From Chitinophaga pinensis (GTDB lineage: Bacteria > Bacteroidota > Bacteroidia > NS11-12g > UBA9320), in contig CAMDSC010000010.1 of assembly GCA_945907065.1 (NCBI GenBank), positions 1 to 64,000 on the forward strand: 64,000 bases of DNA, read 5' to 3'. This document shows positions 1,850 through 13,095 of the stretch, piece by piece. Each line of letters opens with the position of its first letter. Position 1 is the stretch's first letter. Both the position numbers and the translations under genes were made by a program. The notes under the pieces are model-generated. The model searched no databases and was not told the origin of the DNA. It saw only the letters and a program-made list of their open reading frames with translations.

Positions 1850-2572
1850 ATGCTCGATCAACTAAAATTGGATAATATCCTTTTCATAGATATTGAAACT
1901 GTTCCTCAATACAGTAAATATGATGAACTGAACGACCGTTGGAAAGCTTTATGGGATAAAAAAGCTGGTTACTTAGCTCGTAATCAAGAAACGCCAGAAG
2001 AATTGTATAACCGTGCCGGTATTTATGCCGAGTTTGGAAAGATAATTTGCATATCAGCTGGATTTTTAAGCCGTAGTGGAAATGGTTGGTCATTCAGGGT
2101 AAAGTCCTTTTATGGCCATGATGAAAAATTGGTTTTAAAAGAATTTTCAGAATTACTTAACAGCCGGTTTTCAGATACAGGAAAAGCTCTTTGTGCCCAT
2201 AATGGTAAGGAGTTTGACTTTCCATACCTTGGCCGCAGGATTTTAATAAATGAATTGCCTTTGCCCTATATTTTAGATTTAGCCGGTAAAAAGCCCTGGG
2301 AAGTGAGCCATATTGATACCATGGATTTATGGAAGTTTGGGGATTTTAAAAGCTTTACATCTCTGGATTTATTAGCTGCCGCATTTGATATTTCTTCTCC
2401 AAAGGATGATATCGATGGAAGCCATGTTTATGGGGTTTATTACAACGAAACCGATGGACTAGAACGCATTAAAACCTATTGTGAAAAAGACATTGCCACA
2501 CTGGCAAGGGTTTTATTAAAGTTTACAGGGAAAGGTACTTTTGAGGATGAGGATGTGGTGATTTTGAAATAA
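1850..2572 (+). CDS. 3'-5' exonuclease (PolB-like, predicted)
   Basis: DEDD-like motifs: FIDIETVPQY, AHNGKEFDFPYLGRR, YCEKDIATLARV. Confidence 0.82.
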   Translation: MLDQLKLDNILFIDIETVPQYSKYDELNDRWKALWDKKAGYLARNQETPEELYNRAGIYAEFGKIICISAGFLSRSGNGWSFRVKSFYGHDEKLVLKEFSELLNSRFSDTGKALCAHNGKEFDFPYLGRRILINELPLPYILDLAGKKPWEVSHIDTMDLWKFGDFKSFTSLDLLAAAFDISSPKDDIDGSHVYGVYYNETDGLERIKTYCEKDIATLARVLLKFTGKGTFEDEDVVILK

Positions 2573-2587
2573 TTGAAGATAGAATAA

Positions 2588-3466
2588 ATGATAAAAATAT
2601 TTACCCCAAAACTATGGAAAGAATACAGTTTGATAGACTGTGGTGACTTTGAAAAACTGGAACAGTTTGGGCCATATACCCTTCGCAGACCAGAACCACA
2701 AGCCGTTTGGCGAAAGGGACTAAGCGAACAGGACTGGCAAAAAAAAGCCGATGTGGTTTTTAAAGCATCGACTAGCCACAAAGGCGAATGGGTAACTAAA
2801 CCCGGATTTAAAGAACCGTGGAATATTTCCTACTATCTACCCGATGCCGAACTAAAATTTAAACTTCACCTAACAGCATTTAAGCATGTTGGCATTTTTC
2901 CAGAACAAGCTGAAAATTGGGAGTATATTTTTAAAACAATTGGTAATTATAAGGCAGATGTAAGGGTGCCAAAAGTATTAAATTTATTTGCTTATACAGG
3001 CGGTGCAAGCTTGGCTGCAAGAGCAGCCGGAGCCGATGTTACCCATGTGGATTCTGTAAAACAGGTTATAAACTGGGCCAATGACAATCAAAATTTATCC
3101 AAACTTAAAGACATTCGCTGGGTGGTAGAAGATGCCATGAAATTTGCGGAGCGAGAAGCCAAACGTGGAAATTTATACAACGGAATTATTCTTGACCCGC
3201 CGGCTTATGGCATTGGTGCCAGCGGCGAACGCTGGAAACTGGAAGAAATGATTGATAAATTACTAAAAGTGCTTAGTAACATTCTACATCCCGAACATCG
3301 CTTTTTGGTTTTAAACTCCTATTCACTTGGATTTAGCAGTTTAATAGTTAAAAATTTATTAGAAAGTAATTTTAAGAATATCAAAAACCTTGAAATAGGT
3401 GAATTGGTGCTTCCGGCTAAATCGGGATTGGATTTGCCTTTGGGGGTAATTGGAAGGTTTCAATAG
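2588..3466 (+). CDS. class I SAM-dependent methyltransferase (RlmI/RlmK-like)
   Basis: VLNLFAYTGGASLAARAAGADVTHVDSVKQVINWANDN...GIILDPPAYGIG motifs. Confidence 0.85.
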   Translation: MIKIFTPKLWKEYSLIDCGDFEKLEQFGPYTLRRPEPQAVWRKGLSEQDWQKKADVVFKASTSHKGEWVTKPGFKEPWNISYYLPDAELKFKLHLTAFKHVGIFPEQAENWEYIFKTIGNYKADVRVPKVLNLFAYTGGASLAARAAGADVTHVDSVKQVINWANDNQNLSKLKDIRWVVEDAMKFAEREAKRGNLYNGIILDPPAYGIGASGERWKLEEMIDKLLKVLSNILHPEHRFLVLNSYSLGFSSLIVKNLLESNFKNIKNLEIGELVLPAKSGLDLPLGVIGRFQ

Positions 3467-3469
3467 TGC

Positions 3470-3535
3470 TTTGTCATTCCGACAAAGGAGGAATCTCTCT
3501 ATAAAATTATATACCTCGTGCCTCGGAATGACAAA
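3470..3535. repeat. REP/MITE-like palindromic intergenic element
   Basis: Perfect 12-bp terminal inverted repeat TTTGTCATTCCG (3470-3481) / CGGAATGACAAA (3524-3535) enclosing GACAAAGGAGGAATCTCTC. Confidence 0.75.
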
Positions 3536-3620
3536 TCTTTGAAAAAATTTGAATTGTTTAAAATTTGTTCTTAATACCAATCAATCCCGCTTAAATTTGC
3601 AACATACAAAAACTTAATAC

Positions 3621-4277
3621 ATGAAATTTTTTATAGACACAGCCAATCTTGACCAAATACGTGAAGCTCAGGATTTAGGAGTTTTAGATGGTGTAACTAC
3701 CAATCCATCGTTAATGGCAAAAGAAGGAATTACAGGAACTGAAAATGTTCTTAAACATTACAAAGCAATTTGTGATATTGTAGATGATAATGTGAGTGCT
3801 GAAGTTATCGCCACAGATTATGAAGGTATGATTAAGGAAGGAGAGGAGTTGGCCAAAATTGACCCTAAAATTGTGGTTAAAATCCCAATGATAAAAGATG
3901 GTATAAAAGCTATTAAGTATTTTTCAAACAAAGGAATTCGTACCAATTGCACTTTGGTATTCTCCGCCGGCCAAGCCATTATAGCTGCCAAAGCAGGGGC
4001 TACTTTTTTATCGCCATTCATTGGCCGAATAGATGATATGAACTGGGATGGAATAGATTTGATTCACCAGATTTCAAATATTTATAGCATTCAGGGATAT
4101 GATACTGAAATACTGGCTGCCAGCGTCCGCAATTCCTTGCATATTGTAAAATGTGCCGAAGCTGGCGCTGATGTGGTAACCTGTCCTTTATCAGCAATAC
4201 TTGGATTACTAAAACACCCGTTAACTGATATCGGGCTCGCACAATTTTTAGCAGACCACAGAAAAGCAAATTCATAA
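3621..4277 (+). CDS. transaldolase / fructose-6-phosphate aldolase-like, short form
   Basis: MKFFIDTANLDQIREAQDLGVLDGVTTNPSLMAKEG ... KIPMIKDG ... TNCTLVFSAGQA. Confidence 0.95.
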   Translation: MKFFIDTANLDQIREAQDLGVLDGVTTNPSLMAKEGITGTENVLKHYKAICDIVDDNVSAEVIATDYEGMIKEGEELAKIDPKIVVKIPMIKDGIKAIKYFSNKGIRTNCTLVFSAGQAIIAAKAGATFLSPFIGRIDDMNWDGIDLIHQISNIYSIQGYDTEILAASVRNSLHIVKCAEAGADVVTCPLSAILGLLKHPLTDIGLAQFLADHRKANS

Positions 4278-9154: not shown

Positions 9155-9811
9155 TTACACAATCACCCCATCCGCAAAATGAATAATTCTGTCGGCTGAA
9201 TCAGCGAGTTCTTCGTTGTGGGTAACTATGACAAAGGTTTGTCCGTATTTTTCACGCAATTCAAAAAAGAGTTTATGAAGTTCTTTAGCATTTGCTGAAT
9301 CTAAATTTCCAGTAGGTTCGTCGGCAAAAACCACCTTGGGTGAATTGATTAAAGAACGTGCCACGGCTACCCTTTGGGCTTCTCCACCCGAAAGTTGAGA
9401 GGGTTTATTATCCTTGCGATGTGCCACTCCCAAAAAGGTTAATAATTCCAAAGCTCTTTCTTCCGTTGCTTTTCTATCGGCTTTGCCTATCCATGCTGGT
9501 ATACAAACGTTTTCCAAAGCTGAAAACTCGGGCAATAAATGGTGAAACTGAAATACAAAGCCAATGTTTTGATTTCTAAAATCTGATAACGTATTTCCTT
9601 TTAAGTTTGAAATATCTTTTCCTTCAAAAAAGATTTGTCCACTGCTGGGTTGGTCTAAGGTTCCTAGTAGCTGCAATAGCGTAGTTTTTCCGGCTCCCGA
9701 TGAACCAACAATGGCCACTATTTCACCTGCATTAATTTGCAGATTAATTCCTTTAAGAACCTGGACAGTTCCATAGGATTTTTTGATATTTAAAGATTTT
9801 ATTATTTCCAT
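9155..9811 (-). CDS. lolD: ABC transporter ATP-binding protein (LolD-like)
   Basis: Walker [12 protein letters not shown], signature [13 protein letters not shown], Walker [13 protein letters not shown]. Confidence 0.88.
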
Positions 9812-9954: not shown

Positions 9955-12900
9955 TTAAAACGCCCTATTAATCCCAACAACATACCTAAACGCCACATAA
10001 TTGGCCCCGGTTTCTACTCTGTTTAAAAAGAAAGGAATATCAAAACGCAAAACCAATGGTTGCAGTTTGTTGTACTTTCCAAAATTAATAGCCAACGTTG
10101 TTCCTAAACCTGCATCAGCTCGCAAACCGCTGTATTGATTTCCGTTACCTAAAATACCGGCATCGGCAAAGGCATAAGGATTGAAACGAAAGTTATTTAA
10201 AATCTTTGGGGTATTAATTTTAAAAAGTTTGCCAAATTCCAACTCTAAATTTATAGCGGCTCCTTTGTTTCCATTGTAAATATAAAAACTATCAACGCCT
10301 TTGCTATTAGTGGCTGAATAACCTGCCATGCCTCTAATATTTAACCCTCCACCCATTTGAAAAGAATACTGACCGGTATTGCCATAACCCACCCAATCTT
10401 GAGGAACAAACCCTCTGGAACGAGTAAATTTATTTTCAATCAGTTCTTCATTGTTAGCTCCTGCGGCAAACAGGCTGCTTTCTTTGGGCACATCGCCGTG
10501 AAGGTATTGCGTAAATATTCGGCTTTTTAAAATCATCTTTTTCCCGATTGGGTTGTTGTTGTTCACTTTTACTGTTAAGCCTGAATAGTTAAAATCACTG
10601 AATAAGGCTGTATTTCTTAAACCGATGTTTAATAAACCATTTCCTTTGCGGTAGCGGAATGGGTGCTGGTAGGAGAGGTTGAGGGTGGCGTTTATTTTAT
10701 TGTTATCAAAATATTGCGGGTATAAAAAGTAAGTTTTAGGTGATTCACTTTCAGGCAAATCTTTGAATAATATGCCAGTAGCACCAAACGTTTTATAAGA
10801 TATTTGCCATTTATCATTTTTTATTAATTTTTCAACACCAGTCTCAAACAAGCTAATTCCTTCTAAATATTTAAGTCGGGCTGTGAAATCCAACATTTTG
10901 CCAACTCGCGTTTTATAATTTAAGGCAAAATTTAAAGGCTTTATAAATTGCTCATTCCTATATCCAACATTTAATAATTGAGTGTTATACCAAACTGTTG
11001 CACTATAGATATGTTTAAAATTATAATAGTTACCAGATACATTTACCCCGACTTTCAAACCACTTGCATCGCTATACCATAATTCAGGTCGCCAATAGGT
11101 TTTTAGCTTTGTAAAATCCGCAGCAGGTATGGTTAATTTTTCTCGCTCAAAACTATAAGGCAGCTTTAAACTATTATTTAAACGGTTAATATCGGCCAAT
11201 CGGCCACTTGTATCAATTATTATATCCTTAATTCCATATTGTGATTGTACCCATAAAAAATCTCTTTTGTTCATCATATCCCACGAAATCCATCTATGAT
11301 TTACTTGTGCCTTGCCCAATTCTTTTGTATAATAAGTATTGGGAATATGATAATGCAAACGGTTTCCTTTTTTGTCAATTACAGTTACATCTAAAGGCAT
11401 ATGCAGGTCTCCTTTACGTTTTATCTCCACTACATAATCATATTTGGCATTGGTAACTTTGGTATAACCTTTTACTTTATAATCAATGGTTTTTGTTGTG
11501 GTCAACCAATCATCAAAAAACCAGTTTAAATCCACCTTTGTATAATCAATAATTGAATTACGAAAATCTTCTTCATAAGGATGGCAAAATTTCCATTGGT
11601 TAAAATAGTTTTTCATAGCATCCAAAAACAGTTTATCACCCAACACATATTGCAAATTATACAACATGGTAGCTGTTTTATAATACACTTGCCCATAGCC
11701 ACCACCATGCCTTTCAGCCGAATTAAAATGGTCGGAGTGGGTATTTAACCTTGCGGTATTTTCGTTAATAGCGTGATTGATATAACCGGCATACACATAA
11801 GCCCAATCAATATTATTGGGGGTATAATCTTTATTCGACAATTTTTTTATACTCCAAGCTGTTAAAAACTGAGTAAACCCTTCATCCAAGCAAGCACGGT
11901 AGGTTTCATTATTACCTACCATTCCAAAAAACCAGTTATGACCAACCTCATGCGCTATCACATATTGATGTCCTGGCCAATTGCCGCCATCCAGCGTAAG
12001 CATTGGGTATTCCATTCCGTCACGGGCATCGGCAGCTACCATTTTTGGGTAGGCATACATTCCAAAATCTTGTGAATAGGTTTTAACAACATTGGCCACA
12101 AACTTAGCTGTGGGTTGCCAAGCATGTGCATTCTGCTCTTGTGCCAAAGCAATGCATTTTATACCATTCCATTCTACTTCACTAATTCGGTAAGTAGGGT
12201 CGGTAGTAAATGCAAAATCATGAACATTATTGGCCATCCATAACCAGCGTTTGTATGTTCCATCAGGATTTACGGGTTGTGTTATATATTTTGTCGGCGT
12301 TGTAAAATTCTTAATATCAATTTTTTCTCTAAGGCCATTGGCGTATACTTCCCCACTATTGGTCAAAACCCCCGTGGCCTCGCAGATATAATGATTAGGC
12401 AGTTCTAACTCCACATAAAAAATACCATAATCGCCATAAAATTCCTTGCCTAAATGCTGGTCGGTCGTCCATTTAAATTTTCTATCATAAACCGAAAGTC
12501 TGGGATACCAATGCACTCCGTCAAAATGCTTGAAATTATTGTGCTCAAACCGTTTCATTCGGCGGCCCATGGTTCCTTGGTCAAAATAGGTTTTAAAATT
12601 CACTTCCATTTTTAGGATTTTGCCTGGCAATAAAGGCGTTGGCAAATCAATTATCATAATGGTATTATCTACCACAAAAGGAACTTCGGTTCCTGCAATT
12701 ACTAACTTTGAAACCTTAGTTCCTAATTTTTCCTGTTCATATTTACCAAATTTATTAAACACCTTTCCGCCTTTTTCCATTTCATCTTTATAGCTTCCTG
12801 GTTGAAACGCATTTTGAGTTAACCTGAAATACAATTTATAAATAGTATCCGGCGAATTGTTGGCATATTCCAAGGTTTCACTGCCGGTTATTACTTCGGT

Positions 12901-13095
12901 TGTATCATTTAGACGGGCCTTAATATGATAGGAAACGTCCTGCTGCCAGTAGCCCGGAAAAGGTTTGCGATTTTTCCAATACAGGTTATTATCTTCACTT
13001 TGGTATGCTGCAAGTGCACTTTCAGGTTCAAAAACCTGTGCTTGAGAAGTATAAAAAATAAACGAAAAGACTGCGAGAAGGCAATATTTATGCAT
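9955..13095 (-). CDS. M1 family metallopeptidase with C-terminal outer-membrane beta-barrel-like domain
   Basis: HEVGHNWFFGMVGNN...DEGFTQF zinc site and DGMEYPML; C-terminal ~400 aa rich in beta-strand patterns with LNIRGM, FADAG, LRFDIPFFLN and terminal F. Confidence 0.88.
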   Translation of the reverse strand: MHKYCLLAVFSFIFYTSQAQVFEPESALAAYQSEDNNLYWKNRKPFPGYWQQDVSYHIKARLNDTTEVITGSETLEYANNSPDTIYKLYFRLTQNAFQPGSYKDEMEKGGKVFNKFGKYEQEKLGTKVSKLVIAGTEVPFVVDNTIMIIDLPTPLLPGKILKMEVNFKTYFDQGTMGRRMKRFEHNNFKHFDGVHWYPRLSVYDRKFKWTTDQHLGKEFYGDYGIFYVELELPNHYICEATGVLTNSGEVYANGLREKIDIKNFTTPTKYITQPVNPDGTYKRWLWMANNVHDFAFTTDPTYRISEVEWNGIKCIALAQEQNAHAWQPTAKFVANVVKTYSQDFGMYAYPKMVAADARDGMEYPMLTLDGGNWPGHQYVIAHEVGHNWFFGMVGNNETYRACLDEGFTQFLTAWSIKKLSNKDYTPNNIDWAYVYAGYINHAINENTARLNTHSDHFNSAERHGGGYGQVYYKTATMLYNLQYVLGDKLFLDAMKNYFNQWKFCHPYEEDFRNSIIDYTKVDLNWFFDDWLTTTKTIDYKVKGYTKVTNAKYDYVVEIKRKGDLHMPLDVTVIDKKGNRLHYHIPNTYYTKELGKAQVNHRWISWDMMNKRDFLWVQSQYGIKDIIIDTSGRLADINRLNNSLKLPYSFEREKLTIPAADFTKLKTYWRPELWYSDASGLKVGVNVSGNYYNFKHIYSATVWYNTQLLNVGYRNEQFIKPLNFALNYKTRVGKMLDFTARLKYLEGISLFETGVEKLIKNDKWQISYKTFGATGILFKDLPESESPKTYFLYPQYFDNNKINATLNLSYQHPFRYRKGNGLLNIGLRNTALFSDFNYSGLTVKVNNNNPIGKKMILKSRIFTQYLHGDVPKESSLFAAGANNEELIENKFTRSRGFVPQDWVGYGNTGQYSFQMGGGLNIRGMAGYSATNSKGVDSFYIYNGNKGAAINLELEFGKLFKINTPKILNNFRFNPYAFADAGILGNGNQYSGLRADAGLGTTLAINFGKYNKLQPLVLRFDIPFFLNRVETGANYVAFRYVVGINRAF

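Follow-up and report, generated by a model that had tools for sequence, protein, structure and literature searches.

We describe a gene in which an M1-family zinc metallopeptidase is apparently fused to an Omp85-type outer membrane barrel. It lies in a 64,000-nucleotide stretch of Chitinophaga pinensis DNA, which we refer to as the window. Our preferred reading, to which we assign a probability of ca. 0.7, is that the product is an M1 exopeptidase that faces the periplasm and is anchored to the outer membrane by a barrel without POTRA domains. The 1046-aa open reading frame, running from ATG to stop on the minus strand, had been pointed out in a sequence-only reading of this DNA and was borne out by full-length homologues (Table 1). 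Because the identical full-length frame is carried by many independent genomes, an assembly or frame artefact could be ruled out as the origin of the fusion. Three close relatives (L001, L002 and L003; 76 to 89% identity to the window) have the same gene order as the window, and type I-like signals without lipobox, similar to that of the window protein, are found in the homologues. In one homologue (L008:6502-9168, plus strand), the first ~170 residues are missing from the frame, probably owing to a frameshift in the metagenome-assembled genome.

Table 1. Features of the peptidase-barrel gene, in window coordinates
Feature	Position	Strand	Evidence or remark
Whole gene, signal peptide + M1 metallopeptidase + Omp85-type barrel (predicted), 1046 aa	9955..13095	-	Full-length homologues, 42-89% identity
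N-terminal signal peptide, residues 1 to ~20	13036..13095	-	Sequence MHKYCLLAVFSFIFYTSQAQ; cleavage site judged by eye
M1 N-terminal beta domain (domain I), residues ~49-300	12196..12951	-	Strand-rich in AlphaFold2 (AF2) model; Foldseek
M1 catalytic domain (domain II), residues ~301-535	11491..12195	-	Pfam PF01433, 2.2e-14 at 378-530; Foldseek
GMEYP, residues 360-364, at position of GxMEN exopeptidase motif	12004..12018	-	Invariant 26/26
HEVGH zinc-binding/catalytic motif, residues 382-386	11938..11952	-	H382, E383 and H386 invariant 26/26
E405, third zinc ligand (HExxH-x18-E)	11881..11883	-	Invariant 26/26
Y471, probable M1 catalytic tyrosine	11683..11685	-	Invariant 26/26
M1 beta-sandwich (domain III) + linker, residues ~536-635	11191..11490	-	AF2 strands 539-627
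Omp85-type 16-strand barrel (predicted), residues 664-1046	9958..11106	-	AF2, Foldseek, hhalign
Long loop L6 between strands 11 and 12, residues ~869-943	10267..10491	-	AF2; Omp85-like topological position
GGGLNIRGM, RG motif of L6, residues 915-923	10327..10353	-	R921 39/39, G922 38/39, residue 923 = Y/M/F
E951 in strand 12, expected partner of R921	10243..10245	-	39/39
FADAG in strand 13, residues 976-980; D978 expected partner of R921	10156..10170	-	F976 and D978 39/39

The full M1 zinc site that had been recognized in the N-terminal half (HEVGH plus E405) proved to be invariant in an alignment of 26 diverse homologues, with identities down to 22%. This includes the catalytic E383, and it holds as well for Y471, which we take to be the probable catalytic tyrosine of the M1 family. 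The Pfam Peptidase_M1 model matched residues 378 to 530 with 54 bits (gathering cutoff, 27.7), and the NCBIfam scan gave weak aminopeptidase N matches and nothing more. With the full-length model, Foldseek produced alignments of ca. 650 columns to M1 aminopeptidases, with IRAP, ERAP1 and PepN as fold matches of the M1 part (E down to 1.4e-21). The fold of domains I to III, the HExxH-x18-E signature and the tyrosine are shared with the M1 aminopeptidases (PepN, IRAP/ERAP1, tricorn F3 and LTA4H). However, the window protein has GMEYP in place of GxMEN, and domain III is followed by the barrel rather than by a helical domain IV. The sequence-only reading had noted this altered motif. The motif itself is confirmed, with Gly, Met and Glu kept and Asn changed to Tyr in 26 of 26 relatives, the equivalence to GxMEN being one of position only. 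Yet, since GMEY is found in all of them, including barrel-less members, it is the norm of this M1 family and not a peculiarity of the fusion. The change from Asn to Tyr may mean that the exopeptidase specificity differs. In our preferred reading, the window protein is an M1-family zinc exopeptidase, probably an aminopeptidase.

The C-terminal half was modeled with AlphaFold2 from an alignment of 39 barrel sequences, down to 25% identity. The barrel alone was predicted with 16 strands (pLDDT 82.9, pTM 0.82), located at residues 664-675, 679-690, 694-704, 721-732, 735-744 and 747-758 (strands 1 to 6), 761-771, 801-815, 818-829, 836-850 and 854-868 (strands 7 to 11), and 944-953, 969-984, 992-1003, 1014-1024 and 1039-1042 (strands 12 to 16). 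The 16 strands were already present in a model of the whole protein made with 15 homologues (pLDDT 74). The Foldseek list of the full-length model contained M1 enzymes only, with no barrel matches, so the barrel-only model was needed. In a comparison with the PDB, BamA and TamA took all of the first 50 places (best E 1.5e-8), with modest TM-scores (0.36 to 0.50 by query, up to 0.58 by target). Within the strands, residues alternate between polar and apolar with a value of 3.05, versus 1.45 ± 0.27 when shuffled within strands (0 of 2000 shuffles). The elements singled out earlier from the letters, i.e., GGGLNIRGM, FADAG, LRFDIPFFLN and the terminal F, are all there, and the pattern exceeds chance because it is conserved in the 39 sequences, the strands are amphipathic, and AlphaFold2 closes them into a 16-strand barrel. 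Only the start of the barrel had been misplaced, at ~640; the barrel proper begins at around residue 664 (window position 11106). A soluble beta-sandwich for this half, which the sequence-only reading had named as an outcome that would refute it, is ruled out by AlphaFold2 and Foldseek. The structure prediction that had been proposed as a check thus returned 16 strands, a loop bearing the RG motif that connects strands 11 and 12, and BamA/TamA as the best folds, and the models support a predicted barrel of the BamA/TamA type.

By sequence, the relation of this barrel to Omp85 proteins appears to be distant but specific. With hhalign, the barrel profile matched the C termini of Bacteroidota BamA with an E value of 2.8e-5 (probability 74%) and those of TamL-like proteins with 7.8e-5 over 306 columns (probability 62%). 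For comparison, FadL-like outer membrane barrels, used as a negative control, gave 0.31, and BamA versus TamL profiles, as a positive control, 2.6e-24; the barrel of a divergent branch (A4) gave 0.031 against BamA. None of the 39 barrels matched Pfam Omp85 (PF01103), the Pfam scan of the window protein assigned nothing to its C-terminal 400 residues, and the barrel profile had no match in the PDB by sequence. There is no model in Pfam or NCBIfam covering the barrel, and therefore, scans of these libraries see the M1 peptidase only. The GGGLNIRGM segment lies where Omp85 proteins carry their (V/I/L)RG(F/Y) motif, and none of the 39 sequences deviates at R921 (L6) or at its expected partners E951 (strand 12) and D978 (strand 13). 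The counterparts of these two acidic residues in Escherichia coli BamA are E717 (strand 12) and D740 (strand 13), both contacted by the RGF motif (PMC3871556), and a salt bridge R661-E717 has been described (PMC12505904). Barrel fold, strand number, the L6 RG motif and the positions of the E/D partners are common to BamA, TamA, TamL and the window barrel. In contrast to these proteins, the window protein has an enzyme domain instead of POTRA domains and is not universal in the phylum. POTRA models gave no match in the window protein at E<1, and in the full-length model M1 domain III runs straight into strand 1. Without POTRA, it is not a classical Omp85 protein but would belong, if anywhere, to a POTRA-less branch. 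The claim of an Omp85-type barrel fused to M1 is thereby supported by the AlphaFold2 and Foldseek results, together with profile similarity that is weak but specific when set against the FadL control.

In Bacteroidota, the fusion is widespread and probably of early origin. Within the order of the window, 67 of 108 genomes contain the barrel, in frames of ~1000 to 1100 aa where complete, and HExxH was found upstream of it in 27 of the 28 loci inspected. Across the phylum, an M1 relative of some kind was present in 227 of 297 sampled genomes and the barrel (E ≤ 1e-6) in 66. In this sample, the barrel frames fall into two main size classes, one of at least ~985 aa (30 genomes), mostly at the position of an M1 match, and another of ~400 to 470 aa that corresponds to the barrel alone. 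A homologous barrel is also found on more divergent M1 proteins of 1000 aa (E 6.4e-34). In a phylogeny of the M1 part (67 rows), barrel-bearing proteins occupy all main parts, with 16 barrel-less proteins on starred branches within one barrel-bearing group and another, L016, within the group of the window itself. The simplest reading would be an early fusion followed by at least two losses of the barrel, the direction being likely rather than proven because the root rests on a single long outgroup branch. Barrel-less relatives end directly after the M1 beta-sandwich, at an NRxNN segment, and therefore, the barrel is a discrete module. The window-clade member without barrel (L016:5974-8013, plus strand) ends in a lysine-rich tail (KEEKKRYKHKLKK), and a profile search of its locus detected no barrel remnant.

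Standalone barrels with a signal peptide (400 to 470 aa) were found in several genomes, e.g., L159:1108-2409 and 2483-3625 (both minus strand), which lie in tandem, L160:1126-2421 (minus strand), and L161 to L178. They keep the RG motif, as GGANLRGY, and FxDAG, and they are homologous to the fused barrel (hhalign E 1.1e-41; BLASTP 3e-17); those tested against Pfam had no Omp85 match. Genomes with the fused form also have standalone barrels. One was present in all the sampled f24 genomes, where the M1 protein is barrel-less and located at another, unlinked locus, and in the f6 and f9 genomes with a barrel-less M1, no barrel was found elsewhere in the genome. A split version, with the barrel next to a barrel-less M1, was looked for and not found; the standalone barrels sit elsewhere in the genome.

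To our knowledge, the Omp85 proteins investigated to date serve to assemble or move proteins, and PlpD is the first one shown to carry a resident enzyme. PlpD of Pseudomonas aeruginosa and FplA of Fusobacterium likewise combine, in a single chain, a soluble hydrolase with a 16-strand Omp85 barrel that follows it. In the patatin-Omp85 proteins, the enzyme is a patatin lipase, whereas here it is a zinc M1 peptidase, and PlpD has a POTRA domain, whereas in the window protein the M1 domain alone was found before the barrel. Pfam family PF00149 we take to be Metallophos. It defines the “Metallo” subfamily of Omp85 proteins (Heinz and Lithgow 2014; PMC4104836), in which a metal-dependent domain precedes the barrel in few taxa. 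The enzyme domain of the window protein matches PF01433 instead. That survey distinguished ten subfamilies, including patatin-like, WD40, noNterm and “Metallo,” with no M1 subfamily among them and no mention of PF01433 in its text (PMC4104836). The noNterm subfamily consists of barrels without POTRA; our standalone homologues look similar, likened by type only, and the window protein differs from it in carrying the M1 enzyme. No description of an M1-Omp85 fusion was found within the open-access literature, so it seems to be undescribed, such an absence being no proof of novelty. With a second, unrelated enzyme on an Omp85-type barrel, conserved phylum-wide although apparently lost on several occasions, enzyme-bearing barrels would become a recurrent design. 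Because fused, barrel-less and barrel-only relatives all occur naturally, a test system is at hand in which what the barrel adds to a periplasmic enzyme should be directly measurable.

The usual arrangement of Omp85 proteins has the N terminus in the periplasm. With that orientation, the extracellular loops of the model total 152 residues and the periplasmic turns 37. The barrel-less orthologues have a plain signal peptide, with no lipobox or recognizable T9SS-like tail by eye, as fits a periplasmic enzyme. In PlpD, it was found in 2024 that the patatin domain is not secreted and stays in the periplasm (PMC11116518). Based on loop and turn lengths, this precedent and the plain barrel-less orthologues, we place the M1 domain probably in the periplasm, under the outer membrane, and the same evidence does not support the autotransporter-like or surface-tethered peptidase suggested at first. 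The protein would be exported by Sec and its barrel inserted by BAM. L6 would fold into the lumen, where R921, together with E951 and D978, would hold it in place. The M1 domain would hang beneath the barrel, with its beta-sandwich joining strand 1 in the place of POTRA. There, on the inner side of the outer membrane, it could trim peptides from their N termini, a role suggested by analogy with the M1 family. Its substrates might be peptides that come through the membrane or fragments from the turnover of outer membrane proteins, and the barrel would be at least an anchor. A more ambitious version, which we consider unlikely, would make these proteins a separate Bacteroidota subfamily of Omp85 type in which the POTRA-less barrel and the zinc peptidase function as a single unit and the L6-plugged barrel delivers peptides or the ends of outer membrane proteins directly to the peptidase below, coupling passage or assembly at the outer membrane to proteolysis.

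A quite improbable alternative is a type Vd-like secretion or display, in which the barrel would carry the attached M1 domain through the outer membrane, so that it acts outside the cell on environmental proteins. The arrangement of an enzyme N-terminal to an Omp85-type barrel was first proposed to work in this way for PlpD (PMC4104836), and a bacterium that feeds on peptides could well use a peptidase outside the cell. However, the patatin domain turned out to remain inside, the periplasmic N terminus typical of Omp85 agrees with the loop and turn lengths of the window protein, a folded M1 of ~600 residues would have to pass an L6-plugged lumen, and the tails of the short orthologues offer nothing T9SS-like by eye. 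We give little credence to a role in assembly or quality control, with the barrel as an insertase or chaperone like BamA, TamA or TamL and the M1 domain clipping or monitoring its clients. The fold, the L6 motif and the R-E-D positions are indeed those of assembly factors, and the barrel also occurs alone, like the noNterm proteins, for which a role in membrane protein biogenesis has been suggested (PMC4104836). On the other hand, there is no POTRA domain to receive clients, no bam or tam genes are present in the neighborhood, and the barrel was lost without replacement in several lineages and is therefore not essential. That the barrel comes from another outer membrane family, with a converged RG-containing loop, and serves as an anchor only is hardly credible: the missing Pfam Omp85 match, weak profile scores and moderate TM-scores would suit it, but strand number, L6 position, the R-E-D triad and the F-x-D-x-G and GxG motifs fit Omp85, the Foldseek top list is all Omp85, and the FadL control was clearly worse.

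The genomic context gave no functional clue to the peptidase, as no conserved gene neighbor was found across the relatives. The genes murF, rsmE and that of a LolD-like ABC ATPase adjoin the peptidase gene in close relatives only; they are absent beside it in relatives of 42 to 48% identity and were therefore dropped as operon partners. In the window, the LolD-like gene (9155-9811, minus strand) is located downstream on the same strand after a gap of 143 bases. A related gene lies similarly near behind the peptidase gene in close relatives only, and in L008, one is ~2.7 kb away.

The genome of the window codes for two further M1 proteins. One of them (L019, contig C36; 812 aa) is distant and lacks a C-terminal part of the kind seen in the other, L018 (contig C32, 1420-4404, plus strand; 995 aa), in which the last 412 aa are strand-rich. 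This L018-type part, which has no RG motif, is conserved within the order (61 of 107 genomes). Its profile similarity to the window barrel is weak (E 0.0011) and confined to 57 columns that cover the linker and the first strand. L018 may be another M1-barrel fusion, though a very divergent one.
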